DNA of 64,000 bases, taken from Eutreptiella sp. 'Long Island Sound 2002' (lineage: Eukaryota > Euglenozoa > Euglenophyceae > Eutreptiales > Eutreptiaceae). Made by a program: the position numbers and the translations under genes. Positions 17,045-54,243 of the stretch are shown one piece after another (the first letter of the stretch is position 1; each line of letters begins with the position of its first letter). The stretch is from positions 150,988,352 through 151,052,351 of the forward strand of contig OZ038381.1 of NCBI GenBank assembly GCA_964036045.1, in the 5' to 3' direction. The notes below the pieces were generated by a model. It was not told the origin of the DNA and made no database searches. It saw only the letters and a program-made list of their open reading frames with translations.

Positions 17045-17370
17045 TTGAATGCTGTTTTTTTACAACTCTGGACGTGTGCTGTTTATTCCGCATCGTCACA
17101 TGAACATCACTGCTTATTTTTTTCACAACTCTGGATGGGTGCTGTTTATTCCTTATGGTGATTTGGTCTTCACTTTTTAAATTTTTACAACTCTGGATGG
17201 GTGTTGGTTATTTCCGATTGTTAACTGGTGTTATTTTTTTACAACTCTGCATTGGTGCTGTTTATTCCTGATTCTCATATGTCCACCGCTGTTTATTTTT
17301 TCACAACTTTGCATGGGTGCTGTTTGTTTCTCATTGTCATCTGGACATCCATGTTTGTTTTTTTTATAAC
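17045..17370 (+). repeat. 61-bp tandem repeat inside the hAT 3' end
   Basis: About 5.5 copies of TTTTTTACAACTCTGGATGG, GTGCTGTTTATTCC and a variable TGGTCATCTGGACATC part, starting near 17051, 17112, 17174, 17233, 17294 and 17355. It overlaps the C-terminal codons of the transposase. Confidence 0.8.
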
Positions 17371-19591
17371 TCCCGGCACGCATTTCAGCAAGCAATTTCA
17401 GCTTGATTTGGACAAACTGCTCAACAGCCTGAGGCAAGGGGGGCAGGGCAGGCTGAAAATGGTCACGGATCATAGCGAGACACTCGTTAGCATGAGCTGC
17501 CAATGCTGCAGCGTCGTGCCACGGCCAGCGGAAAAAATCCAGGAAACCGGTTGCCTTTGCCACTGGGTGTGTGTTAGAAAAGCGAGTTTGCAACTCCGTG
17601 CGTGCCTTTGCCAAAAAATCGCTTGCTTCTGACTCAAATTCAGCCCGACCCTCGGAGTTGTGCAGGGGGACACCATAGAACCTGGTGTTAGAACCGGGGT
17701 GAAGGACCAACGCAGTGTTGAATTGCTTCCACTCTCGGCCCTCCCAATTGGCAACTCTGTCCAGCTCAGCAACACAGGCCTCAACACTGTGGTCCGCCAG
17801 CGCAGCACATCGCTGAGTAATTTGGAATGCCTCCGACATCAAAGCCCAGGCATGAACCACATCCAACATAAAGAAAAGAGCACACAAAAAGACCTCATTC
17901 GTCAAAGCATACAACAATGCGTGTCTTGGCTCTTTGTTTACCGCCCGGCTCAGTGGAACTTCCAGCAAACCAATTACAACAATCACATAGGAGCGCTTCA
18001 TGCGCCGCAACGCATCAAGAGCAAATGCACTCCAACGACGCGTGTGCAAAGTCCCCAATTTCAGGCACGCCGTGTCAAGTGCCTCGGCCACCCCATGAAG
18101 CGTTTTCAACCTTGATGGGGAATTATTCCAAAAAAGAGCAGCCGATTGCAACGCTTCCGACAACAAATCAAGGAAATTATGCTCAGGGGAGATTGCGGCC
18201 TTAAAAGCAAGGTCGCACCTGTGGCAAGAGACATGGATCGGCACAATGACATCATACCCCGCGAGGTCTTGCTGGAGGTCACCCAGAATTCTGATGAGAC
18301 CCCCCTTCTCCCCTTGGACCACGCTTGCACCATCCCCACAGTAGAAAAAGAGCTTGGGGATCCACACCTCTAGATCTAGGCCGGCATGAGCCATGCTGCG
18401 CTTCAGTGCGGTGGCAATACCTTGTGCCGTGCCGGAGGGGAGGGGTTGACATAAAAAAAAGTTGGTCACCATCATTGAATCCACCATCGTCCGCACGTAA
18501 AAAAGCTCCTCCTTCTTAGATGCACGGTCGGTACAGGAATCAGAGGCAATTGCAAAAAACTCACAACTTTTAACAGTGTCACCCTGAGCGGCACGGAACG
18601 GCTCCGCAATGAAGCGCAAAATGTCTATACCTGCGGGGCGGGAGTGATAGCTGGGGACGATGGTGCCTCCTGTAAGGGGAATGAGGTCCGCATCCCCTTC
18701 CAGATGTGTTAGGGGAGCATATCGTTGCACGACTCTGTACACGGTACGGAAAAGTGCCATGATCCCATCCTGCAGTTTCACTGGCAAAGCACGAATCACG
18801 GAGGTGACGCGCCCACCAAACTGCCACAAGGCCACGGACACATTGTGAGTGCCCGAGTTCTCGTGTTCCTTAACAGTGTACAATTTGAAGTTGGAAGTTC
18901 CTTGCACGAAAGGCACGGAGCTCCCGAGCTGTGGATGGGCACGGCACGCCTCGCACCACATGAGCACACACACGGGATCGTACCGCAACCATGGGCGGGT
19001 CAACCGCCATGCATGGGAGAACTTACGTGGCTTAGGAATAAGGTCAGGCGACGCGGGCTCCCGCGCATCACACCACGTACAAACACCATCAGTGGTGCAA
19101 GTGGGATGCACACGGAAATGACATGCATGACATTCAACAGTGTGGGATGGCAACTCGTTCCCACATGCACGACAAGTACATGAAAAACATTGTACCAGTC
19201 TTTCCACAAGTTGCATGCATGCCTCATCAACAACCCGATGGCACCTGCTGCATGTGTGCTTGGTGCCGCAAATGTTTGCACCGCAGCAAGCACACCGGAC
19301 GCTCGTGAAACCCAACGTTGACAAATTGGGCGCGGGTGCCGCTGGTGTGCGGTGCGAGCGCGGGGGGGAAGCCACCACGAGGGATGATGGTTCCTCGAAG
19401 GTGAAGGCGTACCCGTCCCGAGTGGCGTTGGCTTTGGCCGCCCGCGCGACTTGGGTGTGCTGGATGCGCAGAGACCCTCCGTCCGCTGAGCGTAGATAGC
19501 GGAGGGCCTCTGCAACGTTGGCGAAATGCATCCAAGCGACACCTTGGGGCGCAACGGGGCCAAGCGGCCGCACCCATATGTCAGAACCCAT
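17231..19591 (-). CDS. hAT-like transposase with N-terminal Cys-rich domain
   Basis: Intact frame of about 786 codons ending in TAA. The start chosen is the ATG giving MGSDIWVRPLG. An in-frame ATG 75 bases upstream would add a hydrophobic leader unlikely in a nuclear protein. Residues about 100-175 form a dense Cys/His zinc-binding region (CACCGANICGTKHTC.., CRACGNEL.., CHACHFRVHPTC..CTWC). Next comes a TTF-type-like finger (CVLMWCEACRAHP, then VKEHENSGTHNVS). The catalytic region has FFAIASDSCTDRASKKEELF and FFYCGDGASVVQGEKGG, then HVSCHRCDLAFK. This layout resembles domesticated hAT relatives such as KIAA1586 and ZNF862 (family knowledge). The last 40 residues run into a 61-bp tandem repeat. 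Confidence 0.82.
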   Translation of the reverse strand: MGSDIWVRPLGPVAPQGVAWMHFANVAEALRYLRSADGGSLRIQHTQVARAAKANATRDGYAFTFEEPSSLVVASPPRSHRTPAAPAPNLSTLGFTSVRCACCGANICGTKHTCSRCHRVVDEACMQLVERLVQCFSCTCRACGNELPSHTVECHACHFRVHPTCTTDGVCTWCDAREPASPDLIPKPRKFSHAWRLTRPWLRYDPVCVLMWCEACRAHPQLGSSVPFVQGTSNFKLYTVKEHENSGTHNVSVALWQFGGRVTSVIRALPVKLQDGIMALFRTVYRVVQRYAPLTHLEGDADLIPLTGGTIVPSYHSRPAGIDILRFIAEPFRAAQGDTVKSCEFFAIASDSCTDRASKKEELFYVRTMVDSMMVTNFFLCQPLPSGTAQGIATALKRSMAHAGLDLEVWIPKLFFYCGDGASVVQGEKGGLIRILGDLQQDLAGYDVIVPIHVSCHRCDLAFKAAISPEHNFLDLLSEALQSAALFWNNSPSRLKTLHGVAEALDTACLKLGTLHTRRWSAFALDALRRMKRSYVIVVIGLLEVPLSRAVNKEPRHALLYALTNEVFLCALFFMLDVVHAWALMSEAFQITQRCAALADHSVEACVAELDRVANWEGREWKQFNTALVLHPGSNTRFYGVPLHNSEGRAEFESEASDFLAKARTELQTRFSNTHPVAKATGFLDFFRWPWHDAAALAAHANECLAMIRDHFQPALPPLPQAVEQFVQIKLKLLAEMRAGSYKKNKHGCPDDNEKQTAPMQSCEKINSGGHMRIRNKQHQCRVVKK

Positions 19592-19659
19592 GTCAAGACT
19601 AATCAAAAGAAAGAGGGGGGGAATGCAATAACAACGCATGGGAAAGAAGCACACTCTTG

Positions 19660-19865
19660 TAAGCAACCTTGTTGTGCCCCCAAGTCTGGGGAGGAGGCCG
19701 CCCCTACCACCGACATTTTTCTACTCTACAATTATTCGTCTCTTCTTTACAAGCATTTTCCATTAGTCTACCCCACCCGTTGATACCAACGTTGTTGTGC
19801 CACCAAGTTTGGGGAGGAGGCCACCCCTGTCACCAACCCTCTTCTACCCCCAAGCTTTGCTCTTA
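19660..19865 (+). repeat. duplicated 123-bp segment in the hAT 5' leader
   Basis: GTTGTGCC.CCAAGT.TGGGGAGGAGGCC.CCCCT occurs at 19671 and 19794. It lies between the transposase start and the right subterminal repeats. Confidence 0.7.
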
Positions 19866-20139
19866 ACCATTCGCCTATGCATAGATTACCCTACCTCACC
19901 ACGCGCGGGAAACTTGCCTCGACAACCATGTATGAATGGCAACAATGTGAACAAAATGACAAAAAACACGCAACTTGCAAGACAAAGAAGGTCAATTCCA
20001 TCATGAAATGGTGCAAAAATAGCAATTTACACCAATTTACACTGAATTTACACCTATATACACTGCGATGGCCCAAAAAGTGGCCGTTTTCGTAAAATTT
20101 ACGCATTTACGCGTAAATTTTCCATTCGGCCAGCGACCC

Positions 20140-20170
20140 GGCCAGCGTTTAATTCAAGGGTGGACAGTGG
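20140..20170. repeat. hAT right end: TIR plus target duplication
   Basis: Right terminal inverted repeat 20140-20162 (reverse complement CACCCTTGAATTAAACGCTG..), then GACAGTGG at 20163-20170. The boundary is fixed because removing TIR-to-TIR plus one duplication restores CTG-TCC-TGA, the natural end of the RT gene. Confidence 0.9.
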
Positions 20171-22050
20171 GTCAGCTGAACCTAGTGCCACTGCATCCAG
20201 GTTACAGGCTGCCCCCCGACGTCCTTTAGGGAAACCCAAAACCCACACTGGGGAGGGAACCCCAGGGAACGACTTTAAAGCCACGTGGCGGTCTGCAGCC
20301 CCTGCACAGGCATCCTGCATCCGCCCCTTCCACTCCGAGTCTATCCTGGAGAGGCTGTCAGCCGGGTTCAGGTCCCCCGAAACAAATTCCAGATACACCG
20401 AGCCCTCCACACGCTGGATCAAATAAAACAACCTGCGCAGGTGCCCGTTTTGACGTCGCAAGCCCGCACTGGCCCTAAGGGAAGCGACCTGCTCTAAAGC
20501 TGAGGTATTATCCCCTATCAGACGCCACACAGGCCAGCCCACCCTGATGCAGAGCCGGACCCCACGAATCAGGGCCTCGAGCTCGGCCTCCTGCTGTGTC
20601 GGAACCCCCGGGGAGCAGGGGAACACCCGGCCACCCAAAGCTGGGCCCCAGACACCGACTTTAAATTTGTCAACATCAAAGGCGGCATCCACATACACGA
20701 ACCCCCCCACACAAATGTCAAGGGGAAGCAAGACCTGTGCTCTCCAAGCCATATAGGAAAGCAGGAGGCAGTGTAGGAGGCTCTGGACCAAGGACAAGGA
20801 GCAGTTCTGAAGCCAATTTGGCCCCCACTGACAGTGGGCCCACCAGCCACTCAAAAAAGGGGCGAACCCCACTGCCGGGCGCAGGCTCCAAATAAAACGG
20901 CCTAGGATGCGACGGGCGTGCTTGCGGGTAAGGGGCAGCACCGCAGCCCGAATCCAGAGGCCAAGCAAAGCACCCCCCCCCCCCCCGTGCCCATTTGGGA
21001 AAACCCCCGCACCGTCCCCCGAAAGCACCAGCCACTTCCCCAACCACTGAATCTCCGGGACCGGTTCTAGGACACTCTTAGTGCTCATGACAGCCCCCGC
21101 CTTGCGCAGAGCATCGCAAAGGCGCTGCGACACCGATCCCACCCTGGCTTTTCCATACCCAAGGACCAAGAAGTCGTCTAAAAAGTGCAGTACTAGGACA
21201 CCACTGGTGTCCACGGATCCTGTCACAAAAGCTAGCACATATTGGCATATGACCGGTGAAAGACGCCAACCAAAAGGCAGGCAGGAAAAAGCGTAAGATT
21301 TTCCGTCGATGCGCACTCTAAAGCTGTTTTTATAAGGCTCTGGCAAAGTCAACGACCAAAAGGCATTGGTAAGGTCGATGTGACAGGCCAAGAGGGGGGC
21401 ACCCGGTTCCGCCGAAAGACGTAATCTCTCAAGTTCACGTAGGAAGGGGTCGTTCAGGTGGTCCACACAATCGGACCCCAGCGAAAGCCTCGAGAGGCCC
21501 ATGCTGTAGGCCTGTATAAAGAAGGCAAGGTCCTCAACCGAGGGCAAACTAAAACGTGGCGGGCGAAACTGGTGGCACCTATTGAGGCGCACCAAATGCA
21601 CAATCATGGACGCCTTCACGGCTTTTTTGGGGATGGGGAACAGGTAGCCATTGGGCCCCTGGTGACCCCCCCCCCCCCCGCAGCACACAACCGGAGGACC
21701 CCGTCCCTGACCAAGGCACGCGCCATAATGAGGCCCTCAGGGGAGATCTCCGGCATCTCCCTCAAATCACGATCCGTCACTTCCTGAAAATAAAGCGGGG
21801 CAAGGAAATCCCATAAAAACTCAGGAATGGGGATATTTCCCACCGGTCCCAACCCCCTATCCAACACAGAAAGGTCGAGGCTAAGGAGGAGAGTGACCGG
21901 GGAGGTGGAATCCCGCAGCACACAGGACCACACATCCCCCCGCAGGGAGTCCAAGGCTGCAATTAGTTGGTCATCTACATCCACCATACCCAGGTCCCTG
22001 GCTACCCTTCCCCCCTGGATGAATAGGAAACGGATGCGCCGGTGCAACAC
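20163..22050 (-). CDS. retroelement reverse transcriptase-RNase H
   Basis: The main open frame (from 21688) carries RT motif A HIDLTNAFWSL (Asp 105), motif B LPFGWRLSP and motif C HFLDDFLVLG (Asp 171-172). RNase H follows with FVYVDAAFD (Asp 334), QQEAELEAL (Glu 369), IGDNTSALEQ (Asp 393) and SGDLNPADSLSR. The N-terminal part (22050 to about 21680) is in another frame. It joins through a C-run on the plus strand near 21669-21679 (RLCAAGGGG to HQGPNGYLFPIPKK), so a homopolymer indel probably breaks the gene. The original stop TGA is now at 16808-16806, across the hAT; in the present arrangement about 20 extra codons run into the hAT end. RT and RNase H resemble DIRS-group enzymes. Confidence 0.85.
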
Positions 22051-22156
22051 GTCTCGTAGGCCCCCACTTAGTCTCAGGCCCGTGGAAATTTCGTCCAGTC
22101 ACCCCTATCCTCGTTCCGACCGGATCAACCTCTCCACAGGCCTCTCCCGGGGGCAT

Positions 22157-23587
22157 TCATCGTTTACCGGCGCCGCCGGCTGCACGTCTGGCCAGCGTTG
22201 CCAGGTGCTTGGCTCCGAGACCCGCTGTGGTTCGGGGCCGTGTCATCCATGTCGTGAAACCCCTTGGCCGTCCCTGGAACCGTCCACCACCTCGAGACTG
22301 TCCGGTTCTTTGTGCTCCTCCACTGGCGTCATGCTGTCGCGTGGGACCCATCTCCACGTCCTGCTCCTCATCGACGTCGATGGGACTCTCCTTGGAAGTA
22401 ACCGGGGCTTCTGGTGTTCCGCTCTCAGCCCTATCCCGCGTCGGCATCGGGTCCACGGACCTCGTGCCTTCGGGAGGCTCGACGTCTGTTGGGGCTCCTG
22501 TCCCTGCGACTCCTTCCGAGACCGTGCGTCGGGATTCGTGGCCTCCTCTCTCCTTGCGTCTTGAGCCGACCGTCCGTACCGCTGCGGCGCTCTCCTTTTC
22601 GGTCCCGCCGTCTCCACATGCGGGTTGTGTTCGCTTGGCCTCCGCTGGGGATGTGCGGACTTTCTCGTCATTTTCGAAGAGCTCCACGAGGCTGGCCGGC
22701 CAGAGGTCCCTGATGTCGGTTCTTCTCCAGCGAATTCCTTCAGTGGCTGGCCAAGGCAGTCGCGTAGTCTGCACACATTCAAATTCGTCAGGGGGAGACG
22801 CGTACAGCTGGGCAATTTTGATGTTGTGCCATCGACCCCACCACAGGAGGTGTCTCCACGGAAGTCCCAACCACCGGAGGTAGGTTGCGCCCGCTCGTCT
22901 CCAGGCATGCCACCTGGCTTCTCCTGTGTCGGTCCCCTGCAAGAGCTTGGCCATACCCATTTCGAGATCCGCTGCTCCTCCCAATGCTGGCGCCTCACCG
23001 GGCGCGATCCTGCGGAGCCACGTAGCCCATGCCTGCGCGTATGCCCCAAGTCGTCTCGTGATCTGGCGATGGTCGCGCTTGATCCCCTGGTACGTGATTC
23101 CCACTTTGGAGATGTTCGATCGGCGAAGCGACGATATTTCTCCAACTCTGCAGAGCGTGGCGAAGGATAGGACCGCCGCGGCATAGACTTTCCACTCCCC
23201 CACCCTGGAGCACGATTCGGCCATGAGCTGGAGTAGGTCGGGCCCTCCGAACTGTCGCTGTCCCGGGGAATCCACTGCCGCCTTAGAAATTCTCCACAGC
23301 CTGTCCCATTGCAGGGGGGGGATCCACCCCAAGGTAGCCACTGCCTTGAGAGCGGATATGCATCCTCTGGCCGCCGCCGCCTTCTGGCCCTGGGCAAACA
23401 TGGAGAGCAGGACCTTTTCAGCCAAGGCCTGCATGTCCCCTGGCTGGACACCGCCCCCGAATTGGGCGAATCCCCGAAGGTGGCTCGTATAGGTTCTTCG
23501 TGTCGATGGCCGCCATGTTGAAACCAGACAGGGCGCCGGGCACTCCGTGGGGTCGGTCTCTCCCAAGATTTGCCATGCATGCACCAC
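22157..23587 (-). CDS. tyrosine recombinase of the retroelement
   Basis: Residue numbers count from the GTG at 23587. The core-binding part has WRPSTRRTYTSHLRGF and a helical stretch to about 130. The catalytic domain shows LCRVGEISSLRRSN (Arg 147), ARWHAWRRAGATY (His 227, Arg 230), WWGRW and IAQLYASP (Tyr 262), the R..HxxR..Y set of tyrosine recombinases. The tail from about 290 is low-complexity, rich in Glu, Arg, Gly and Thr. The frame stays open upstream to 23854 apart from a TAG at 23596-23594, so the true start is unclear. The stop is TGA. It lies between gag and RT, the VIPER order. Confidence 0.88.
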   Translation of the reverse strand: MVHAWQILGETDPTECPAPCLVSTWRPSTRRTYTSHLRGFAQFGGGVQPGDMQALAEKVLLSMFAQGQKAAAARGCISALKAVATLGWIPPLQWDRLWRISKAAVDSPGQRQFGGPDLLQLMAESCSRVGEWKVYAAAVLSFATLCRVGEISSLRRSNISKVGITYQGIKRDHRQITRRLGAYAQAWATWLRRIAPGEAPALGGAADLEMGMAKLLQGTDTGEARWHAWRRAGATYLRWLGLPWRHLLWWGRWHNIKIAQLYASPPDEFECVQTTRLPWPATEGIRWRRTDIRDLWPASLVELFENDEKVRTSPAEAKRTQPACGDGGTEKESAAAVRTVGSRRKERGGHESRRTVSEGVAGTGAPTDVEPPEGTRSVDPMPTRDRAESGTPEAPVTSKESPIDVDEEQDVEMGPTRQHDASGGAQRTGQSRGGGRFQGRPRGFTTWMTRPRTTAGLGAKHLATLARRAAGGAGKR

Positions 23588-23714
23588 CGCCGGCTAGTCG
23601 ATGACGTCCTGGGAAGCCACAAGGGTGGGTGCGAGCACAGGCCTCCCCCTTTTGGAAGCGGTCCAGCCGTTGTAGCATTGATGTCGCGTCCACCGGCTGG
23701 GCCGCCAAGTCCCG

Positions 23715-27208: not shown

Positions 27209-27457
27209 TGTAATTTTTAATTTTCAATATATGAAGGCGTTAATACATTAATCTCGCAAATATTAAGAGGTTAAAGTCAAATTTTTGCGATCGGGCTATT
27301 TGTACCCATTTTTCCATGCACATATGCGGACCTATAAGGGGTGTTATGTGGTATATTGTTGCACAGCGGTATAGTAGAGAGGTTCCAATGTTGTGTTGGC
27401 GGGCGTCTTGGAAACCCCCCCTCCGGTTGCCCGCATTCCCCCCCCCTCCACACCACC

Positions 27458-29497
27458 ATGATCCCTTGTATAGCCCTTGTTATGCCTTTCTCTCGGGACA
27501 CCCTTACCGAGCTTAACATGACGCTCGTGCGTTTGAGTGGGGCCAAGAGTTTGCGGGACCCTTTGGTCTCCCAACTCCTTGGTGAGTGGGTGGCCTCATC
27601 CCCTTTGGCCCGGGCCCGATGGTCCGATGCCATGGAGGTTGGGTACCCCTCCCTTATTCGTAATAAGCAAGTGGAGGCGGTGAAACAATATGCCTCCCAC
27701 CTTTTCCCGGCCCCGGACCTCATCGGCCTCCTCATGGACTTGAACGTCCCCAAACTCGGCTTCCGGCACGTGTCGGAGTACATGAGCCGCCAGGGGTCGG
27801 CCTACTCGGCCGCAACGGGCCTCCCGTTCCCCCGCCCCTTCCCCACTCGGGATACTTTCACGGACACGTGGAAGGAGTTGGTCACCCCCCTTGACCTACA
27901 ACCACCCGTGTCCGTCCCCGATCCCCCCGCGAGTGGGCGCTTTTGGCCGCTACCCTCATGGGCCCGGTACGTCCAATCACGCCCATCGCTAGTGGGGACC
28001 ATCGATTGGACAAGGCCCCTCACCTTCATTGTGCGTGGGGATGCGTACCCGTGCGCCGGTGGTAGTTGGACCCAACTCTCCATTGGGCTCCTCAACCATG
28101 GCGCACGGGGCCGCACACCCGCGTACTTGTGGGTGATAGGGATGGCCGTATGCGGGGACAAGGACATGGCGGCACTTGCAACGATATGGGCCGACAACTT
28201 GAAGGTTTGTGGCCCATTCGTTGTTTGTAGATTTTTGCGTTAAATTCTCGAGATTAATATCTTGTTTTCGGTTAATATTAACGCCGACTGAAAAATTAAC
28301 TTAATATTAATCTCGAGAAATTAATGTAAATATTAATCCATGTCCTTTTTGTAGGTATTGCAGTCCATACAAGACTGCGAGAAGTTCCATTGGGTGTTGC
28401 GCTGGGTGCCAAGCAAGTTGGTCGTCGGGGGAGACCAACCGTTCGTGCGGCGCCTTATGGGTGTGTCCGCCTCGCCCTTGGTGGGCTCAATTTACAATAT
28501 GGGGGTGTGGGACAAGGTTGCGGCGGCATGGGTCAACGTGGCGAGCCGGCGCACCTTGGACCGTGAGGAGGCGGCCCGCCGCCGCGACAAGGAGACCGGC
28601 CGTAGCTTGGGGAATGGGGAATGCATAGGGGATCCACACATTGTGGTTGACCGGTGCATGGTTTTCCTATGCATCCTCCATTGTTGCATGGCCATTGGCC
28701 GGCTCCAAGTGGCGTTCATCGAGACACGCCTTGTGGACCTCCCCAAGGAGAACACCGACGCCGTGCAACGGGTCCTCTACCGGGCCCGCACGGGTGTGAA
28801 GTTGGGTGCGACGGGGGCACCCGACGGGGAGGAGGCCCGTGCGTTGTTCCTCGCGTGGGAGGAAGTTGGTCCGTTGTTGGACTACGTCCCGGAGGATGGT
28901 GAATGGCAAGCCGTCGTGGCCATGCGTGACCTCCTCCGGGAGTTGTACACGGACAAGCCGCCCTGCGGGAACCTACGTGCAGCCGAGGTGGCACGCGCCT
29001 ACCATGCACATCGTTGCAAGGAGGCGTGTCAATCAAACTACCTCCTCTAGTTGGAGGAGGATGTCACCGAGGCCGTGGCCAATGCACGCCGCTTGGGGGT
29101 TGGGTTGGGTGCCGTGTGCGCGGATGTCGTTGAGAGCCTCAACGCCATCCTTAAGCGCGCATACAATGACCACTCGGGCCGCGGGGGGGGGGGGGTGCCG
29201 GGGGCAACCCAAGTAGAGCGGGAGGGGGAGGTAGTTTCCCAAGTGTGGGAGTGGTGGTTTTTAAAATTTGACCTCCCGCTACGCAACTATGGGACCCCCC
29301 ATACCGCCCCATGCACCATGGCCAAACTCATGGCCACCCATAGCCCCCCGCCCTCCACCCTTGCTTCCCCACCACTAGCTTTGTTTTCTCCTTGCCATGG
29401 ACGCCTCGGCCATGCAAAAGATGTTGGCCGACATGTTCAAAGCGAACAACGAAGTGTGTGTTTTGCTTGTGCACGCTTGCTTGCGTATACGAATTAA
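27458..29497 (+). CDS. TE-2 gene 1: putative transposase, one intron, one internal TAG
   Basis: Exons 27458-28204 and 28355-29497 join in phase 0 (IWADNLK to VLQSIQDCEKFHWV), giving about 629 codons. Possible catalytic blocks are FIVRGDAYPCAGGSW (Asp near 195), PHIVVDRCMVF..LHCCMAIG (about 345-366) and ADVVESLNAILKRAYNDHSG (about 505-524). Acidic residues in such settings suggest a DDE/RNase H-fold nuclease, but I cannot place it in a named superfamily. A single in-frame TAG at 29048-29050 (QSNYLL-TAG-LEEDVTEAV) splits it; the sequence after it is still protein-like. The last 30 codons overlap the start of gene 2 in another frame and may not be coding. Confidence 0.6.
28205..28354 (+). other. 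intron of TE-2 gene 1
   Basis: 150 bp, GTTTGT...TTTTTGTAG, phase 0. The core is an inverted repeat: TCTCGAGATTAATAT at about 28242 and ATATTAATCTCGAGA at about 28303, so the intron RNA could fold. Base composition is far more AT-rich than the exons. Confidence 0.8.
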
Positions 29498-43391: not shown

Positions 43392-46359
43392 AATTTTAGC
43401 GGTCCGCCCAAACCAAGTATCCGCGGCCCCTTGTCCTTGGGGCCCCTTGTCTAGGGGTTTTGAGCCTAGCCCGTGATACTCTTCAGTTGAATTAATACAC
43501 CAAGTTGTTTCATCAAGCTATCCATGCTTTCAGGGCCAGATCATGCAAGTTGAGGCGCTAGACAAACCATGCGCCAAGGGGCGGGGCTCCACTAGGCCGT
43601 ACGTTGAGGCGACCCAGGCATGCACGGCGTCGTAGAACTGCTACAGCCAAGGACGGCGGTTTCTTCAAGGCCTTATGGTCACAAGCGTCGCCCCCACACC
43701 TCGCCGTACCGCAGAAGCTAGCCAACATGCAGCCAAGGGCACTCTGGCGCAAGGATTTGGCCCGGCAGATGGCGGTAGTACGCGAACACCTCGGGCCGTC
43801 TGGCTCCGTAGCGACTCATCCGCCGATCTTGGACCACGATGGCCTCTGCGTAGCGGAGTTACGGCTCTAGCTTGACCGGCCGGCTGCTAAGCAGTAGCCA
43901 TGCCGGCTGCTTTTTGGCCAGGCAGGGATGGAGGATCGCCGTGAGGAGTCTACTAGGCACGCCGTGGGACATCGCGTGATGCACCACAGCAAGGACCAGC
44001 ATGGCGAACCCCAAGAGTGTGCCCACCAATGACGGCGGCTGCTCTTCTAGAGACAGCACTAGGGAGCCCTTGCCTATGCCACTTCATGGATCAACGCCGA
44101 GGCGCTCACCACCGGCGGCTCCGGCAACCGTGGCATCGCCCCCCACATGAGGGAGACGGAGGCAGGGTCATCCGTCAAGTCGCCAGGGTCGCCGGGCACG
44201 ACTAGCCGCAAGGAATCCATGGGATGACCGGCGGGGCCGCAGTGCAGCAACTAGGCTTGCCGCACGACGTTGCTTAGAAGCCCTCTGGCGTGCCACGGAA
44301 TCGGATGCTACCGGGCAATGACATTCGTCAAAAGGCAGAGCTTGGCGGGCTTCACACGGAGGACGAACCCCGTTTGGGCCGTGAGGAAAGCCCTTATAAC
44401 TTGGACTCATCGACACAAAGCAGGGGCGTGTATGCATTGTTGTACTACGCCTTCCAACACGCCTCAACGGCGGCTAGCCCTACCACACCGTTCAACTGAT
44501 CTACGGTGCGGCTCGCGACCAAGGCATCCCGGGCAAGATGCCACTAGGAATCACGGTGGTGCGGCACCAAGCCTTCTAGAGCGGACCAAACGCCAAGGAG
44601 CGGGACATCCAAGGATAGGCGGGGGTGCGCCGACCACCACGGGGCCAACGCTACGGCCTTCGCCGCTGCCGGAGCTTGTAAATCTAGTCTGACCAAACCA
44701 GCCAAGATGGGATTCCCGAACTGGAAGTCACAATCGAGCATAGGGTCCGTGCTAAGTCCCGAGGAGGAGCCGGCACTCGGCCCCCATGGAGAGGGCGTTA
44801 GGGCTGAAGAGCACCCAATCGAGCACATTCTCCGACGGGTGGCCTACCTGCCCCACCACATTGGCGGGATGGCCGGGGAGAGCCAGCCGTCGCCCTACAA
44901 GCCGTTGGAATTATTGAGGGCACCCGCTAGCAGCCACGGGACAAAACATGTTGTTGGCAAAAACATTGGCGCCTTGCTCACAACACCGTGGCGCCAGCTG
45001 GCGGGCAGCGCGGGTTATAGGTGAAGGCCGATATTGGGTACGGTCATGCCTCGCGCAGCCTGCACCTTTGGGCACATGAAGTGCTCTTATATGGAGGCTG
45101 CTATAGGTGGCCTTTAACCAAAGCCCCGGAGACTATTTGCTCGGGAACAAAACCACCAAATTGCAACTCGCGAACAGCCGTCCCACGTTCACTGCGCACG
45201 GCAAGCCGCGGATCCACGGCCGCGTGAACCTGGGGCCAGGTCGTACATGTGGACGATGGCTGGCGTAGGTGATAAGTTCAGGGAATTTGCCCAAATCGGA
45301 GCTAAAGCCCCCGCAATTGGCAGTGGTGACACATAGGCGCTCCATGTTGGGCAACCGCAACAGCTAGTAGTGGTCACGGAACAGGGGCTGGCAGATCGCA
45401 CCACAAGCCCTACACGCAGGCCAGCAGCAAAACCCCGAGCTCCTGGCAATCGGCTATTTGCACTGTGCATTAGCTCGCCATGTCCACGATTACCAGGCAA
45501 TTGTAGAGTAAAGCAGGCTATGGGTCACGCGGTGGGGGGCGCCGCAACCTACACCCTGCGAGTCGCCGCGGTCATAGTGGTCATAGGACCAATCCCCGGC
45601 GGTCTCTAGAAGGGGGGCGGAGTCTGTTCTCCGTCATGCGTAGAGCACCACGTGGTCCGCGACTAAGGGGAGGGAGGGAGCCCTGGCCCGTTGGCGGGCG
45701 GAGGAGTGGTGGAGCACTCGCTGAGTGCCGAGCGCACGAGGGTATCCCAAAAAGGGGGCCAGTAGGGGAAAGACGGAGAGGTCCTTCGCCGGATCCACGA
45801 TTGCCACGCCCACCATTGTTCACTCTACCCTTGCATCAACATCAAGTCGGTGCCGCCACATGCCACGTATTGGGGCCACACAGACGGCGGCGGTTCTTAA
45901 CACCCTCACACCTCCCCCCCATGGTCCGAAGCCCGCTGCCACTGCAGGCCCTGGTGCGGGTCTTTCCACAGCACGCCGCAGGGATCTATATCCTACTCGC
46001 CAACATCCTGCGGCATGCCAAACCCCCCCCCCCCCCCGCCCCATGACCGGAGCTCGCGCGGCCATGCCCGGCGCATGTGGGGGCAAGGTTTGACCCCGGC
46101 CTGTGGTGCCGTGCGCTCCTTGGACGTGAAAGGCATCAGCCGGGCCGGGCCTGGGACCCGTTGGGGATGGCAGTGTCGTGGGCGGCGGGGCAGGCTTCGT
46201 AGGGCCGCTGCTCGCGCCCGCGGTGGGGAGTGCTCGCGTCCCAGGGCCAACTAGGGGAGCTGGGCAGCGGGGGGAACACCACAGGTGCTTCTCGGGTCTG
46301 AGCAATCCCCGTTGCAATGGGGACTACTGGTCAAGTCTGCCAAGGGGTTGAAAGCAGCT
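43392..46359 (-). pseudogene. probable LINE-C 5' remains
   Basis: GC-rich DNA of the same texture as the RT region, rich in CTAG. Minus-strand frames are broken and no endonuclease or ORF1 block could be named. It also abuts 41.4-41.96 kb, which has no recognisable content. Confidence 0.35.
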
Positions 46360-46399
46360 ATGGCTTCGCTTTCTTCTTCGGGGGGCTTGCCTTTCCCAA

Positions 46400-46423
46400 C
46401 TTAGGCCACGCAAACTGCCCACC
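46400..46423 (+). repeat. left inverted repeat of the two-gene element
   Basis: CTTAGGCCACGCAAACTGCC plus ACCC-type end, identical over 24 bases to the reverse complement of 53353-53376. Confidence 0.85.
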
Positions 46424-46464
46424 TTCACGGAAGCATAGGTGGCAGACCAGCATCTTCGTCTGGT

Positions 46465-46981
46465 GCTGGTGCCAGCACCAGATGGGGGGGTCTGTGGGCT
46501 CATTTTGATGGTGTCTTATTGTAGGCACAAAAACAAGGCCTTTTTGGGGGGTCTCAAACACGTTTCTTTCATTTTCATCTATTGAACCCACTTCCCATTT
46601 CCTGGATTGAAGGTGTGATATCGGAGGAAAAGCACATGTAGGGCTTATTGCACCATGTAAACAGGAAGCTGTAAAATCACGCTGTTCTGGACCCCCCCTG
46701 AACTGTGGACACGAACAAGCACGCTGACACAGTGTCTCTATTTCCACATTGGGAACTTCGAATCGTATACTTTGTAATACACTAGTAGTATCATATGCAC
46801 ATACACAACCATACATAGGAGTCACCGCTGCGAAGTATATGCAAAATTCACCTGCAAATTGTTGTACCTGAAAGACAGGGCTGTTTACATGAAAATCCAG
46901 CTGAGCAGCTGGGGCCAGCACCAACACCTGGAAAAATGGCAATGAAGACAAGCAATTGGGCAAAGAGTAGCTGGTGCCAGC
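46465..46981. repeat. left palindrome cluster (three GCTGGNNCCAGC)
   Basis: Cores at 46465-46476, 46908-46919 and 46970-46981. The last two are 62 bp apart, the same step as in the right cluster. They lie 3' of gene A. Likely subterminal binding sites (inference). Confidence 0.75.
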
Positions 46982-47147
46982 ACTTCCTGAGGAAAACAAT
47001 GAAATAGTAGGTGCAAACCAAGCAGAGGTATTGTGAGTGTTGTGTAACAACAAAACCAACGGACAAGTGCATGACTGTGCAAGACGAACACTGACAGCGC
47101 TGTAGTGCAAAGCACTGGACCAGTCTTTATGGGATCAAGAAACATGA

Positions 47148-50001
47148 TTACTTCTTTGCTGCAGCAGCCCTGTTGATCCGGGCAGTCCAATTGGTAAATC
47201 CAAGTCGTTTGGGTTTCACAGTGTCAGCAGGATCACCAGCGGCGCCTTCACTGTTGGACTTCTCCCCGCCAGTCGCAGACTGCTGTGCCCCATTGCTCGT
47301 AGCCTTCCCTGGAGTTGCACGTTTCGAACTACTGCTCTCCTCATCCTGCTTCCGCTTGGCACCGGTTTTTTTGGGCTTCGGCTTTTGGGCCAACGGCTCT
47401 GCTTCATGCTCGGCCACTTCCTCTCCATCCTCATCCTCGTCCCCCTGTTCTACGTCCTCAAGCTTGCGGAATTTTCCCGTGCAATCAATGGGTACCTCAT
47501 GGAGCATCTGATTTGTCACCCCAGTCCAGTCAATATTCGGCAGGCCATCAGCTTCCTTGCATCCAGCAACAGCATGTGTGACAAAGTCCTGAATTGCCGT
47601 ATCCCCAAGGATACCAACCACCACATTGACAGGAATATGAAATCGAACTGTGAGGGCCCCGGGCAATGCGTGGGAGGAGGACAATAGCAGCAGCCATATT
47701 TCTTGGTACACCACCATTTCACCAGCCAGTGTCAGCAAGTAACCAACAATCTCCACGGGCAGGTACCCCCCACTTGGGAAATCCGTCACAGTAATGTATC
47801 GAGGCACCTTAAAGGGGGGAAAAAAGCAATTCTTCAATGAAAGGAGCTGGCCCCAGCTGCAACGAGGTGAAACCACCATTTTGTTGTGATTTTTGAGCGC
47901 GTGTCCGAACAACCAGGGTCGCAGTGTGGTCTAGATACCTTTTGTGGCAGCGGATGTTTCGAGAGAAGATTCACTTCAGTACACCCCATAGTACATTGTG
48001 GTGACTTCTTGTTGAGGTGGTACACTGACAGCTTAATAGCACAGAACCCCGTATCTTGGTGCTGTTCACGAAGACTGTCCACAATGCCACGACAATCACC
48101 AGGCTCACCGGCAACAACAACAAGAACGCCACGCTGCAGCACTGTACTGACCAATGCATGGATGCCCAGGGTAAAGCCACGGGGGGGCTCAATGTACACC
48201 ATTGTAAAAGAGATACCAGCCACTGCTGCTGGGATGGCCGAGCCAATTGCAGCTGGCAGCACCACAAGTTTTTCGTCCGAGTCCCCTTCCAACTGCAACA
48301 CATTCATGTTCCAAGTGAAGTTCCGAGTGAAGGCCAAGCAGTGACGTCAGTGAATCGCTTTGCAACCGGGGTAGCACACAGACCTGTGAATTCTTCTCAG
48401 TGGCACCCATGTGCAGGTCGACGGTGAAGAAATTGTCCCGATTCGCCTGGACGGTTGGTAACACCAGTGGTTTCGACAAAGATTCTCGCAGACCAACATA
48501 GCTGACATCCTTCCAAATCGGCGCACTGACAACGTATTTCCACAGTGGAAAAGGGTCCTCTTCTGTCCAACGCCACGTGTATGTCTTGAAATACAAAGCA
48601 CTTCGGCTTGCCAGGAGGGATTCACACTTTTCTCGTTCACCCAGTCCACCTTAGCAATCATAGTACAAACTTTGAGACCCCAGTGGTTGCAGGCACCAAA
48701 ACGGCATTTCCGAACGATGGGTGCTGGCCCCAGCACCTCTCACAACAAATTGCAATCGAACAGCCACCGCAGAGGCATCCTTATGGGAGGGCAAACATAC
48801 GGCGAGATTCATGGATGAGATTGTTCTCAGGATGACACAGATCCCAACTCCATAACCGATCCAGTTTCAATCGCTTTCCCATCTTCTTGAGCTGTGCTCC
48901 ACCATTGGCCGTGTCAGCCATAAACTTGCAGATTGTCCGGATATCGGGGGGCACCTGTCCTTCGAAGCAGCGCATTTGATTCACAGTCATGCTATGACCG
49001 CGGGCCTCCAGCATCTGCACTGCAAACGCTGCTTCACGTCCACAAGTACTCACCAACAGAGCCACAGGAGACCACTGCTTTATCATATTGGCCTACAAGG
49101 GGTACCACAGGATTCACACCGGGCAACAGATGGCGGAGTACGTTGAAAGGGCGATGAAACCACAAACAAACGGACGTGCTGACGGGCAGGCACACACCAG
49201 TGTGCCATCATGAGCGCCGAATCCACCTTTCACCCACAAATTCGTCAGGTGCTCTCTGGCAGTCAAGTTCCTCTCGGTATCCCTTTCGTATTCCACCACC
49301 AGTCGCTGAACTCTCTCACACAAAGTTGGTGCTCGTGCTGTCTGGTTGGCTTGACTGATTCCTGCCAGGGACTCACGAATGGTCAACAGGCTCTCAGGCC
49401 GCACAACGGTCGCCAGGAAATGGGAACACCATCGGGGAGGGGGCAAGTTTCGCTTCTCCGGCTCCAGTTTCACGCGCCGAGCAGCCTCCACTATGTGCTG
49501 GCCAGACAGTATCCAATAGATCCCACCTGATATTGCACCCGGTCACAAATGATCAAAGTCAACGGCAGTTTTGGACAAGCGATGCTGGCACCAGCACCGA
49601 CGAACGTTATTGGTAACGAAACAGCAAACTGTGCGCACACAAGGCAGCATACTTCCATCACCCCGTATTACAATCCGGATAAGGGTAGTCGGCGGGCGCT
49701 CCTTCAGGTCCTTGACCTTGTTCAGTACCTCATCCTCAGACCACTTTCGTATCTGCCCAAACTGCATCTTCTCGTCCCATCGCAGTTTCTCCAAGGGTAT
49801 TTCCACCTCCCGTTTTTCACAGTGGTCCGCGAGCTTGATCTTCAGTGCACTGTCTGGCTTGCCTCCTTTACCACCTGGCGCTGAAACTGGCTGTGATGCC
49901 GTCACATCCTGAGACTGGCTTAGGAATCCCCCGTTCGTTGACGGTGTCATTGGTAGAGGTGACATTGCACCAGCACCCTCAGCAGGGGTTGCATCTGACA
50001 T
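47148..50001 (-). CDS. gene A: six-exon protein with ParB-like motif and basic tail
   Basis: Exons 50001-49653, 49526-49198, 49092-48801, 48649-48384, 48292-47939 and 47807-47148 total 2250 nt, exactly 750 codons with TAA and no internal stop. All five introns are GT-AG (126, 105, 151, 91 and 131 bp), and every join restores sensible protein. ATG 50001 (MSDATPAEGAG) follows a TAA/TGA-rich leader. Residues 70-130 contain EIPLEKLRWDEKMQFGQIRK and GDGSGIYWILSGQHIVEAAR. The [D/S]GQH..EAA block resembles the ParB/sulfiredoxin nucleotide-binding motif (family knowledge; moderate). The C-terminus has an acidic stretch (651-663) and a nuclear localisation-like KPKPKKTGAKRK (672-683). Likely the DNA-binding or regulatory partner of gene B. 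Confidence 0.8.
47808..47938 (-). other. gene A intron 5, with palindrome
   Basis: 131 bp, GTATCT...CCTTTAAG, phase 0; joins PLPQK to VPRYITV. Core GCTGGCCCCAGC at 47846-47857, about 40 bp from the 3' splice site. Introns 2 (49197-49093) and 4 (48383-48293) have no palindrome. Confidence 0.85.
48650..48800 (-). other. gene A intron 3, with central palindrome
   Basis: 151 bp, GTATGT...GATTGCTAAG, phase 1; joins IHESR to RGLGEREKCES. Core GCTGGCCCCAGC (48723-48734) is at the midpoint. Confidence 0.85.
49527..49652 (-). other. gene A intron 1, with central palindrome
   Basis: 126 bp, GTATGC...CAATATCAG, phase 1; joins GDG to SGIYW. The core GCTGGCACCAGC (49584-49595) is almost exactly mid-intron. 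Confidence 0.85.
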
Positions 50002-50399
50002 TATGATGAAGAGTCTCATTTGAAGGGAAATGGTGTGGCAAATCGACAGAAATCGGTAATGGAACAGCAGTTTCAGCAGAAAATGGCGCAAATTGAGCGG
50101 TGTGTCAGTGGCTCTGTCCATACGAAGGGCAGCGCACATCGCAGTCAATTAATCCCCGACAGCGGCATCCGCTTCGCTACTACTGACATGGCACTGGTAA
50201 ATTGCGCACTTGGTCCAAAGCCCTGGAAGGAGACGGCCGTCTCAAATGATCATGTTTCCGTGACCGGTCAGTACACGTGCCAGACTTTGATTCCATTGCA
50301 TCCAGACCAAACAGACCGAACAGAAAACAGTGCGACAGACAACAGACAACGGTGTGTGTGCAATGTGCACCGAGGAAAGCAGGAACAATAGGAGGGAAT

Positions 50400-50411
50400 G
50401 CTGGCACCAGC
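50400..50411. repeat. intergenic palindrome between genes A and B
   Basis: GCTGGCACCAGC just 3' of gene B and about 400 bp 5' of the gene A start. Confidence 0.7.
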
Positions 50412-50465
50412 TACTCATGCAGACAAGCGTAACCCTACCCTATAGTTAGGCAGGGGGGCGGGGGG

Positions 50466-52739
50466 TTATTCTTGGAACACCGCCCCCTCCTCCTCGTCAC
50501 TGGGAGGAAAACTGAATTCGTCTTCCTCTTGAAGCAAAACCAAGGGGGGGGGGGCATCACTCATGGTATCCACATCAACTACCAGATGCCCCAGGGAGCC
50601 AAGGGAATCAGCACTGGACACGGATATGTGGTCATCCTCTACCCCCACAAACCGATCTGGTGCATCAGCATCATCAGCATCAGGGGCACCCTTACCCTTG
50701 CCCTTCCCCCCCCCTTTCCCGCGCCTGTTGCGTGTGCGGAACCGTTCCATTAGGCTAGTGAGCTGTGCAACCTCTGCAGGGTCTCTCCTAAAATTGCATT
50801 GATCCAAGTACTCAGTAACACCTTCCGGAGGGGACCGGTTGGATAATAATAACAGCACACTCCTGCGAAAAACCTTTCGCAGAGCAGCCTCATTAACAGA
50901 ATCAGGGTTGGGCTTGGGAAACGTGTGTCCTTCAGGTAGAAGGCCAACAAAAGCAGTGGTTTTAGCTGTAGTAAATGGGGCAAACAAAAGCTAGGGACTG
51001 GTACACCAGGCGATAAAGCGACGGAGGCGTGCTCGAAAAAGATCGCACAGACCAGTGCGTAGCTTGCCGCGAAGGGTTTTGGTGCCCATGCGCGGGTGTG
51101 GCATGCTGAGGAACAAGTCCATTAGAGCGGGTTGCGATAATGCAGTTGGATGGAGCTTGACCCGGGCGGAGAGCCGGGACAACAGGGCCTCACCAATCTC
51201 TTCAGCAAAGAGACAACCTAGGGTATTACTCATCCACTCCTGCCACACTGCAAGTATGACACTCAAACTGCGAACATATTCTGTTTTGGCGTCCCAATCG
51301 CCAGTAAGAAACAGATGTAGCAGCAGGCCCCATTGCAAAACTGTGTGGGCTGCCTGACCAGTGCCTGGCTGTCGCCCTGACCAGTTGCATTTGCGTACCT
51401 GTACGCCTAACGCAAAAAGCGCAGGGACATAACTAAACAGCAAGGACTGCAGTCCTTGCAACCAACGGGTAGCTGTATCCACTTGAACTGATGAGAGAGA
51501 TGCTGGTGCCAGCTGCAACCATTCCAATTTGCGTTGAATACGTACACGTACAGAGTTACCTACAAGTAGTAGTGCTGCTACCACTTTCTCAATGTGGAGC
51601 AGCTTACGGTGGTGGTACACCATGGCACCCACTTGCAAATTACAGTTTTCCAAGGCAGCAAAGATAGGAAAGAAGGCCTTGTATACCTCAAGGGCAGTGT
51701 GTTTGTAAGGGTGCCACGCACCGTACATACAAGGCAATATGGACAGATGCTCATGGAAATTGTACTGCACATATGACTCCCCGTACAAAAAACGCAGTAA
51801 ATAAAAAAGTATTTTCATATCAATTATTAGGGGCATGGGGCGCCGGGTGTGCCGCTGTATGTCCTAGATCTCTTGTAGAATGTGTAGCAAATCAAGGATC
51901 GCACCGGTAGTCAAATCGGTCAACAACAGTGGCCGGAATTGTAGTGACCTAACGTTGTCCCGTTTAATATCGAGGGGAACACGAATAAACTCAGGCTCCG
52001 CATCAAGCGAAACCCGTGTAACATCGTTCAAGGAGCGAAGTGTAGTAGCAGTGGAATGCACAGCTGAGTCCAGCTGTCCCAACACGGTTACCAAAGACGG
52101 ATGCCCAGGGCAGGGACATAGGTCTGTAGTGTGCAACATTGCAAACACTGTCAGGTTCATGCTGGGATTGGGATGCTCTGGGTCAATAGTAGACCTCTTC
52201 CACCACCAGTTATCAAACCACATAGCCATTTGGTGGTTTGACATGGACGACCACAGTTGTTGTGCAGCCGAGGTAGCCTTGGCAGTTAGTGGTACAGGGC
52301 GATTGGTAACAACACCACAGTTTGCTAAAACACGGCGAACACCCTGCGTCAAAGGTTGACCTGTAAGTGTGTCTTTCCGTGATACCTTACTAGTTGGACG
52401 TGCAGCCTTGTGCAGGACAGACCATAGCATATATAACTGTTTCGTGAAAACGGACAACCAACGAGGCTTCCTATTTTGCTTACTTGCAACAACAATTTGA
52501 GGTACCGTCTTACGAGTACGACGGTTGCAGCGGACCTGTGCCAATAGGTGCACTAACATCAGAACCCCCGGCTCGCCAGCATGGGCATCACGTAATAAAG
52601 AAGACCCATTTGAATAATGTCCAGTACGTAGTAGATGCCGAACAACGGAGTAGGAAAATTTCATTACAAAAGTCTGGTGATGTAAGTAAAAGACACGATG
52701 CACATGGTGGCAAAACACAGCACACTCCCTATCCTTCAA
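50466..52739 (-). CDS. gene B: putative transposase, two in-frame TAG codons
   Basis: A single minus-strand frame of 758 codons ends in TAA, interrupted only by TAG at 51866-51864 (LLHILQEI-TAG-DIQRHTRR) and 50993-50991 (FIAWCTSP-TAG-LLFAPFTT), with no frameshift. The 5' end is open. It may be spliced to an upstream exon through a GTTAGT..CATAAG intron (about 52804-52755), or start at MKFSYS (52667). Blocks include MAMWFDNWWWKRSTIDPEHP followed by MNLTVFAML, and LPCMYGAWHPYKHTALEVY. The N- and W-rich blocks, and D in FDNW and IIDMK, suggest an RNase H-fold transposase, but I cannot name the family. The C-terminus is Gly/Lys-rich, then Asp/Glu-rich. A palindrome core (51502-51513) lies in coding sequence. 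Confidence 0.65.
51502..51513. repeat. palindrome inside gene B coding sequence
   Basis: GCTGGTGCCAGC, in frame within EWLQLAPASLSS; the only copy in firmly coding DNA. Confidence 0.6.
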
Positions 52740-52822
52740 TGAGATGCACGTACCTTATGAAGATAAAAATCGGTGGAATGGATATGGGAATGGTACTAAC
52801 CAGGTTGCTCACTGGAGTTGGT

Positions 52823-53176
52823 GCTGGTGCCAGCACTCATAGTCCGGAACATCATCTCAGAGACTCGATTGCATTGAAAGGTGCTGGCATCAGCTACTTT
52901 GAGCCAAAGGGGGATTCGAGAAGACCATTTGAGTCTGCAGGTGCTGGCACCCGCACCTTTCTGCCAAAGAGAACCAAGGAAAGGTAAAATTGCTTGCAAA
53001 GGTGCTGGCCCCAGCTGCTTCAATGATAAACTTGATACCAAAGATACAAAGTAACAGGACATGTCCAATACGCGGTGACTATAGTAACCAACATGTGCAC
53101 AATTGAATATCACCAACAAATGTAATTGCGGGACATCCCACAAGTACTTTTCGTCAAGGAAGGTGCTGGCCCCAGC
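52823..53176. repeat. right palindrome cluster at 60-bp steps
   Basis: Cores start at 52823, 52883, 52943, 53004 and 53165 (steps 60, 60, 61, 161). Each is embedded in AGGTGCTGGCNCCAGCNNCTT-like flanks; two carry one mismatch. Between cores the sequence is unique. A 142-codon frame (53224-52796) runs through the cluster, but repeated AGAST residues are what the palindrome itself encodes, so I treat it as subterminal DNA or a leader exon rather than a proven gene. Confidence 0.8.
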
Positions 53177-53352
53177 TGCAATCATGGGAAACATACTTTT
53201 GAGATCAGCATTTTCAATCATCATGAAGTAGTAGTGTAGAAAGGGTGTTTTGAACCCCTAACTTCATCGGCCGCGAAAATACACGTTCAAAAAAGGGGAG
53301 TTTTTTACACTGCTCTTTTTGGGTATAGAACCGGGCAAAAGTGTGCCACGGG

Positions 53353-53376
53353 GGTGGGCAGTTTGCGTGGCCTAAG
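53353..53376 (-). repeat. right inverted repeat of the two-gene element
   Basis: GGTGGGCAGTTTGCGTGGCC plus TAAG, perfect inverse of the left copy 6.95 kb away. Confidence 0.85.
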
Positions 53377-53417
53377 CCCAAGAAGGCCTCTGGGGGGCAA
53401 GAAGAAGAGCGCGCCAT

Positions 53418-54243
53418 CCTGTCTATGGGACCGTACAACGAGGGGCACAACTCGCATTGCCCACATCAACATCACGATGGCCTGCATTTCGCCCTTTGCA
53501 AACGCAATGTGCAGACCGCCGCATAGCACAAGCGGACCTTGGATCCGAAGTGCAAGATGATCTCAGTGACATCTTTCAGGCCCCCTAGTAGCGCCGAGAG
53601 TTGCAGCACCGGGTCGACTATTGAATCAAGCATTAGGTCGCCGGCAAGCCCACCTCAGCATGCATGATCGGCATGGTTGGCAGGGCTGCGCATGGGGCAA
53701 GGGGTTGAGGAGCCTAGGTGGTCGAAGGCGCTGGGGCTGTGGCCTTTGTCCACGGGCCACCGCATGTCCCGCACAATACGGGGGCAGATGCTGCTACGGG
53801 GGGGGCTGCTAGGTCAACGCCAGGGTGGACGCCCCAAGGCCGTGTCACGATGCCGTCAATGCCCAAGCCGGCAGGGAAGAGATGCCGGTTGCGTCCTTGA
53901 CGGCTAACTTAACCGCTTGCAACACCTCAGCCTAGGCACCTATGACCATTCCCGCGAAGACCGCCGCCTAGAATGTGGTGCGGTCCATGACTTGTAGCAA
54001 AGCCAGCTGGACGGCGGTGGGCATGTCCGCGGCGCACGCAATGGAGATGGCCATTAGCACAGATGGAGGGGAATACGGTTAGGGCCATCCTCACCGACGG
54101 AGTGGGTTGAAAGTACAGCTCCGTACGGTCGCCAACCCAGGCGGCTTGGTCGGCGCCAAGTCGAGGTGGTGCTAGGGAGAGGGACCCCAGGTGGGGGAGG
54201 GGGGGCTCCGTTGGGGGGAGGGGGGCTCCCCTTAGGGGGCACG
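53418..54243 (-). pseudogene. LINE-like remnant, right flank of the two-gene element
   Basis: Minus-strand pieces such as MAISIACAADMPTAVQLALL, then ..TF-TAG-AAVFAGMVIGA-TAG-AEVLQAVKLAVKDATG look like ordinary protein interrupted by TAG, then TGA. Composition and CTAG richness match LINE-C at 41-46 kb. Domain not identified. Confidence 0.35.

Follow-up and report, generated by a model that had tools for sequence, protein, structure and literature searches.

A perfect inverted repeat that brackets two minus-strand genes in a 64,000-nucleotide stretch of the Eutreptiella sp. 'Long Island Sound 2002' genome (contig OZ038381.1; the whole stretch is hereafter the window) raises the question of whether the bracketed DNA is a mobile element and what its two genes, here gene A and gene B, contribute to its movement. 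The original prediction, made from the sequence alone, had proposed an undescribed DNA transposon family in which a ParB-like DNA-binding protein encoded by gene A partners an unusual transposase encoded by gene B. We find that the element is a recently active, many-copy, two-gene DNA transposon family of about 7,000 bases.

Ends, copies and recent movement of the element

The inverted repeat is 24 bp long, with 6,929 bp between its arms, and no such 24-bp inverted repeat occurred in shuffled window sequence. It lies around the two minus-strand genes as had been predicted; the outer coordinates given for the whole unit (46360 and 53417) proved too wide. Because a 5-bp direct repeat, CCCAA, abuts both arms (chance ~0.0014 at the local composition) and genome matches to the left end begin at window positions 46393-46400, we place the element at 46400-53376, with CTTAG as its terminal sequence and a target duplication of 5 bp. 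The features that delimit it are the following:

46395..46399, + strand: left target-site duplication CCCAA, identical to 53377-53381 and abutting the repeat (14 of 15 other two-ended copies carry a 5-bp duplication)
46400..46423, + strand: left terminal inverted repeat, CTTAGGCCACGCAAACTGCCCACC (repeat search, shuffles, other copies)
46400..53376, no strand: transposon, 6,977 bp, with minus-strand genes B and A inside (inverted repeat and target duplication, copy boundaries)
53353..53376, - strand: right terminal inverted repeat (repeat search, shuffles, other copies)
53377..53381, + strand: right target-site duplication CCCAA (abuts the inverted repeat)

The flanks on either side (46340-46399 versus 53377-53436) are weakly similar in inverted orientation (shuffle P 0.019; equalled by 4 of 280 control pairs), as the two halves of a palindromic target would be.

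Further copies were sought in 2.28 Gb of genome sequence, where only the best candidates for each query were scored. For the left end (the first kilobase of the element), the best 40 of 164 candidates were scored, and for the right end the best 40 of 173; both sets, each including the window's own copy, are 98-100% identical to the query. We fetched 20 of the 39 other left-end places, taking the top ones by score, so that the choice was made by the left end. The left terminal repeat (at most one mismatch) is present in 20 of 20 and the right one, within the fetched stretch, in 15 of 20; the five copies without a right repeat, which are partial element matches or are rearranged in the fetched stretch, were left out of the duplication count. 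Perfect 5-bp duplications, each of a different sequence, flank 14 of the 15 two-ended copies, and the duplication of the remaining one (L094) is 6 bp. Eleven of these fifteen are full length (6,967-6,986 bp), ten of them being 97.9-98.6% identical to the window copy and one (L103) 94.6%, and the other four, of 2,494, 3,623, 4,456 and 4,727 bp, are internal-deletion derivatives that retain both ends and the target duplication. In four further copies (L109-L112), 4,300 bp of the element are identical and the flanks are four different ones, which shows that movement was recent. The five copies L109-L113 have in common a single-base change in their right terminal repeat, and L109-L112 form a young sub-family. 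Inverted repeats, per-copy target duplications, dispersed copies and non-autonomous deletion derivatives, all present here, are features of class II (terminal-inverted-repeat) elements. The mobile family foreseen in the original prediction, with copies bounded by the 24-bp ends and by target duplications, is thus borne out.

Coding capacity of the two genes

The two genes are carried together, as had been claimed, in all 12 full-length copies examined. Their parts in the window are as follows:

50466..52754, - strand: gene B frame, putative transposase, with two in-frame TAGs (frame; 26 of 59 scored genome matches stop-free)
49653..50001, - strand: gene A exon 1, with the start and the first half of the ParB-like stretch (splice model)
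49234..49526, - strand: gene A exon 2, with the second half of the ParB-like stretch and GQHIVEAAR (splice model)
48801..49092, - strand: gene A exon 3 (splice model)
48384..48649, - strand: gene A exon 4 (splice model)
47939..48292, - strand: gene A exon 5 (splice model)
47148..47807, - strand: gene A exon 6, with the TAA stop (splice model; 150 scored genome matches)

Gene B was found on the predicted strand with its predicted FDNWWWKR and GAWHPYK blocks, but the frame is not open in the window: TAGs that the prediction had not mentioned stand in frame at 51864-51866 and 50991-50993. With its two TAGs, the window copy is not itself a working source of gene B; open copies exist elsewhere. Among its genome matches (the best 59 of 7,759 candidates scored, 91-100% identical), 26 are stop-free, some of which end early, near residue 737-742, and nine of the 12 loci kept (L109-L117) hold frames of 762-768 codons with both blocks. 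With so many stop-free matches, reassignment of TAG to glutamine is unneeded and was rejected, as was a 39-nt intron across the second TAG, which is possible by sequence and likewise unneeded. Judged by gene A's codon usage, the gene B frame of the window copy comes out best in all three of its pieces.

In a mobile family with class II ends, the gene that accompanies gene A is most naturally read as the transposase, and by elimination we consider this identification of gene B probable. The homology searches weigh against it: Pfam has no match above the cut-off, Endothelin coming closest (E 0.045), none was obtained in NCBIfam, the best PHROG match (E 0.47) is to a group whose function is unknown, and matches to PDB sequences have E 1.1 or worse. 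To the same side belong a single-sequence AlphaFold model with a predicted local distance difference test (pLDDT) score of 39, unusable for fold search, and a ratio of nonsynonymous to synonymous polymorphism (pN/pS) of ~0.8-1.9 among the nine frames where changes suffice, in which purifying selection is not visible at this depth. Such a ratio is what neutral decay would give if copies are moved in trans, and is no proof of selection. Searches found no relatives of gene B in viral contigs or phages, none of its 290-residue middle piece in prokaryote genomes, and no 24-bp end in viral contigs. The FDN...WHxxK pattern presumably resembles that of DUF6589/KDZ-like proteins, which we take as a lead only. 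Since only the best of the 7,759 candidates for gene B and the 5,065 for exon 6 of gene A were scored, distant relatives may be numerous.

Gene A comprises six exons separated by introns that are all GT..AG, at splice sites which we picked from the sequence. The predicted six minus-strand exons were thus recovered, open in the window, but the product measures 737 aa from the ATG at 50001 and not the 749 that had been given. The gene is open in 4 of the 12 full-length copies (the window, L090, L091 and L102), and the GT/AG borders of its introns are all intact in 10 of the 12, the window counted. For exon 6, the best 150 of 5,065 genome candidates were scored, at 87-100% identity; with at least 150 such matches, gene A is not a single-copy host gene, one of the outcomes that would have refuted the original prediction.

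The similarity of the gene A N-terminus to ParB was examined using profiles built from named phage proteins (most annotated as ParB-like or as ParB-containing methyltransferases, some hypothetical) and E. coli YbdM. The broad profile comprises 23 domains (22 phage, one E. coli), a 24th, from L079, having been omitted because the motif search missed it. With hhalign, this profile aligns to 45 columns of gene A, from SEDEVLNKVKDL through GQHIVEAAR, with a score of 21.9 and a pairwise P of 0.003. Only 1 of 200 shuffles reached that score, gene A ranks first among 190 window frames, and the best PHROG for the ParB-like piece is 'ParB-like partition protein' (E 0.096). On these grounds we lean towards a ParB-like N-terminus.

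Other results count against that label, which the original prediction had used. The hhalign probability is 10% for the match and 3% for full-length gene A, and true ParB members, left out singly, score 79-162. With a narrower, 12-sequence profile, the best gene A match falls on the right motif at a score of 16.8, which 3 of 100 shuffles exceeded. In HMMER, the alignment behind the broad profile scores gene A at -1.2 bits and a different frame of the window at 11.7. Full-length gene A has no Pfam or NCBIfam match; the ParB-like piece alone meets two unrelated Pfam models below the cut-off (PBP_like_2, E 0.033; NirDL HTH, E 0.077), and its top match among PDB sequences is a designed protein (E 0.11), with no ParB. 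Moreover, the arginine of the ParB GxHR / GHxR motif is isoleucine in gene A (GQHI). No relatives of gene A were found in viral contigs, and only chance-level matches were obtained for the ParB-like piece in phages and plasmids and for the C-terminal piece in phages.

A palindrome array inside the element

The element carries a feature that was not part of the original prediction, an 18-bp palindrome, GGTGCTGGNNCCAGCACC, with the core GCTGGNNCCAGC, which occurs 13 times in the window, always within the element and with 11 perfect cores:

46462..46479, - strand: site 1 (mismatch search and matrix)
46905..46922, - strand: site 2 (mismatch search and matrix)
46967..46984, - strand: site 3 (mismatch search and matrix)
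47843..47860, + strand: site 4, gene A intron 5 (matrix)
48720..48737, + strand: site 5, gene A intron 3 (matrix)
49581..49598, + strand: site 6, gene A intron 1 (matrix)
50397..50414, + strand: site 7, between genes A and B (matrix)
51499..51516, - strand: site 8, inside the gene B frame (matrix)
52820..52837, - strand: site 9, between gene B and the right end (matrix)
52880..52897, + strand: site 10, with an imperfect core in the window and an intact one in 9 of 12 copies (matrix, copy alignment)
52940..52957, + strand: site 11, with an imperfect core in all 12 copies (matrix, copy alignment)
53001..53018, + strand: site 12 (mismatch search and matrix)
53162..53179, + strand: site 13 (mismatch search and matrix)

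Using a matrix made from these 13 sites, they score 20.6-27.4 bits and the next best position in the 64 kb scores 9.4. A search at up to three mismatches recovered 12 of them against 0.92 expected, and the window's other 57 kb contains no perfect core. Counted at 30 other distinct places in the genome, cores number 251 within 156 kb of element-matching DNA, against none in the adjoining 40.4 kb; we prefer this recount to a first count over 40 partly overlapping loci (301 inside, 0 in 54.3 kb outside).

Within the element, 12 of the 13 sites are non-coding, at a locus where about two thirds of the possible positions overlap coding sequence (binomial P 1.6e-5), and introns 1, 3 and 5 of gene A hold one palindrome each. 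Counted from 46967, successive sites are 876, 877, 861 and 816 bp apart (P ~3e-4 for non-coding placement) and then 1,102 and 1,321 bp, and the right-end sites follow at 60, 60, 61 and 161 bp; the placement and spacing tests were both chosen post hoc, with the sites already seen. The central two bases are TG, CA, CC or GG only, a restriction that gives each site a direction (GCTGGCMCCAGC). At the left end, the outermost three sites point left; at the right end, the outermost four point right and the fifth, 52820, points left.

We suggest that a DNA-binding protein encoded by the element itself may dock at the palindrome. Two observations tell against such a role: the 60-bp steps at the right end could mark the sites there as old tandem duplicates, and among copies the palindromes mutate at much the same rate as other non-coding DNA (0.0077 vs 0.0083), so that no conservation is visible; the copies are young. 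Between 9 and 12 of the 12 copies have an intact core at any given site except 52940, where all 12 are imperfect.

Proposed mechanism, rival readings and known systems

On balance, we slightly favour a model of this two-gene element as a cut-and-paste-type transposon in which gene B would transpose it and the ParB-like gene A protein would bind the palindromes and pair, coat or silence the element. Starting from the observed ends, duplications, copies and sites, we infer each binding and catalytic step as follows. The gene B transposase would cut at the 24-bp ends and insert the element at staggered 5-bp targets. The gene A protein, as a dimer, would read the palindrome GCTGGCMCCAGC with its ParB-like N-terminal part and, when bound to the sites near the ends (three at the left, five between gene B and the right end), could help to pair the ends (synapsis). 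Because the promoter of gene B is expected on the stretch from the gene to the right terminus, which holds the right-end sites, the gene A protein could also repress gene B from there. At the interior sites, spaced at about one per 0.8-0.9 kb across gene A, it may coat, loop or mark the whole element. A more far-reaching version, to which we give only tentative credit, makes the family a new superfamily, defined by an unclassified transposase, a 5-bp duplication and a ParB-like protein that would load on evenly spaced palindromes, introns included, to form a nucleoprotein unit like that of a parS/ParB plasmid.

The orientation of the sites admits another reader. The three leftmost sites pointing left and the four rightmost pointing right (52820 aside, which points left) are arranged as transposase sites might be, so that the palindromes may be read by the gene B transposase or by a host factor, gene A being an unrelated passenger or regulator. 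However, the array extends through the gene A introns, far from the ends, and genes A and B keep company in the 12 full-length copies; we regard this reading as doubtful. The intronic position of three palindromes, together with a dyad that could fold, would also suit RNA hairpins in the transcript that act in splicing, silencing or stability instead of as DNA sites. The five palindromes that separate gene B from the right terminus may fall outside the transcript or at its edge, and a hairpin loop would be hard to accommodate in a two-base spacer, which makes such hairpins very unlikely.

A further possibility concerns gene A itself, which might be a degenerate version of the algal ParB plus DNA-methyltransferase accessory, one that binds its own element and marks it epigenetically, or that did until the methyltransferase half decayed. 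By eye, gene A has VYIEPPRG at the expected place of DPPY and LPVEIVGYLLTLAGEMVVYQEI at the expected motif X/I region, but the searches point the other way. A methyltransferase profile built from 26 viral-contig frames and YhdJ finds its best gene A match in the wrong register at a score of 19.2, which 2 of 60 shuffles exceeded (22.2 and 19.8), and with HMMER gene A falls outside the 12 best window frames. Gene A has no methyltransferase PHROG match, and the DPPY-type motif of N6A/N4C methyltransferases, searched as [DNS]PP[YFW], is absent from it. Profile, PHROG and catalytic-motif searches thus gave no support to a methyltransferase reading of the gene A C-terminus, and we judge the degenerate-accessory explanation unlikely. 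Six exons are, in our judgement, unusual for a 7-kb transposon, and could suggest that gene A was captured from the host or that two genes came by chance to lie between repeats unrelated to them; this is refuted by the genome copies, which share ends, both genes and target duplications, and by the abundance of exon 6. Among these readings, the two-gene transposon with a palindrome-binding gene A protein remains the one that we slightly prefer.

Elsewhere in the window, other repeats and frames were observed. A minus-strand reverse transcriptase frame (20099-23593; Pfam RVT_1, E 2.6e-12), adjacent to a frame with a phage-integrase match below the cut-off (E 0.05), belongs to an element that we read as DIRS-like. 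An 829-residue minus-strand frame at 17231-19720 contains a C17orf113-type zinc finger (Pfam E 3.2e-10) and presumably resembles a hAT-related transposase, and a 222-residue reverse transcriptase fragment lies at 3352-4020 (minus strand; RVT_1, E 3.7e-8). A satellite with a 149-bp unit (~18 copies, 95% matches) occupies 6099-8778, and an array of a 72-bp unit is contained in 1-2788. Two long plus-strand frames, 27338-28243 and 28355-29050, without meaningful family matches, possibly belong to another element of unrecognised type.

ParB-like accessories of transposons have already been proposed in print. ParB-like and DNA-methyltransferase accessory genes stand beside the transposase in algal DNA transposons such as Ectocarpus Sola1-1_Ec32, and the algal ParB-like accessory is proposed to bind and modify its own element; the available part of that report names no binding sites and records KDZ transposons in algae (PMC12477816). 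As far as that part describes it, Sola1-1_Ec32 resembles the present element in being a DNA transposon that carries, next to the transposase, another gene for which a ParB-like DNA-binding part is proposed. It differs in that here the ParB support is weak, a methyltransferase is undetected and candidate sites are identified, and in that the element measures 7 kb and not 21.5 kb, with its genes on one strand and not on opposite ones.

The nearest mechanical analogue is En/Spm (CACTA), which has two products, a catalytic protein and a protein that binds repeated subterminal sites, and whose short repeated sites near the ends resemble those seen here. Its termini are CACTA/CACTG and its duplication 2-3 bp, in contrast to the CTTAG ends, 5-bp duplication, two separate genes and sites throughout the element in the present family. 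Kyakuja/Dileera/Zisupton (KDZ) elements are large DNA transposons, some with accessory genes; gene B has no Pfam match above the cut-off, remote homology to them is possible, and the 5-bp duplication contrasts with the 8 bp of Zisupton. Transib elements make a 5-bp target duplication, which agrees with that observed here, but have CAC-type termini, from which CTTAG differs. The likeness to bacterial and phage ParB with parS consists of a weak profile similarity over 45 columns and of palindromic sites in the same element; unlike in those systems, the motif arginine is absent, no ParA-like partner was noticed among the two genes and the genome is intron-bearing.

In the literature searched, which leaves most subscription papers and repeat libraries outside, we found no account of a palindrome array or a gene B of this kind. 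The family combines an unassigned putative transposase with an unusual array of candidate binding sites and is possibly a new superfamily; gene B would add a transposase family that is as yet unassigned. To our knowledge, few eukaryotic DNA transposons offer both a candidate accessory DNA-binding protein and a clear private set of candidate sites. Since this family has such a candidate protein and such sites in many near-identical copies, it makes the role of the algal ParB-like accessory directly testable.

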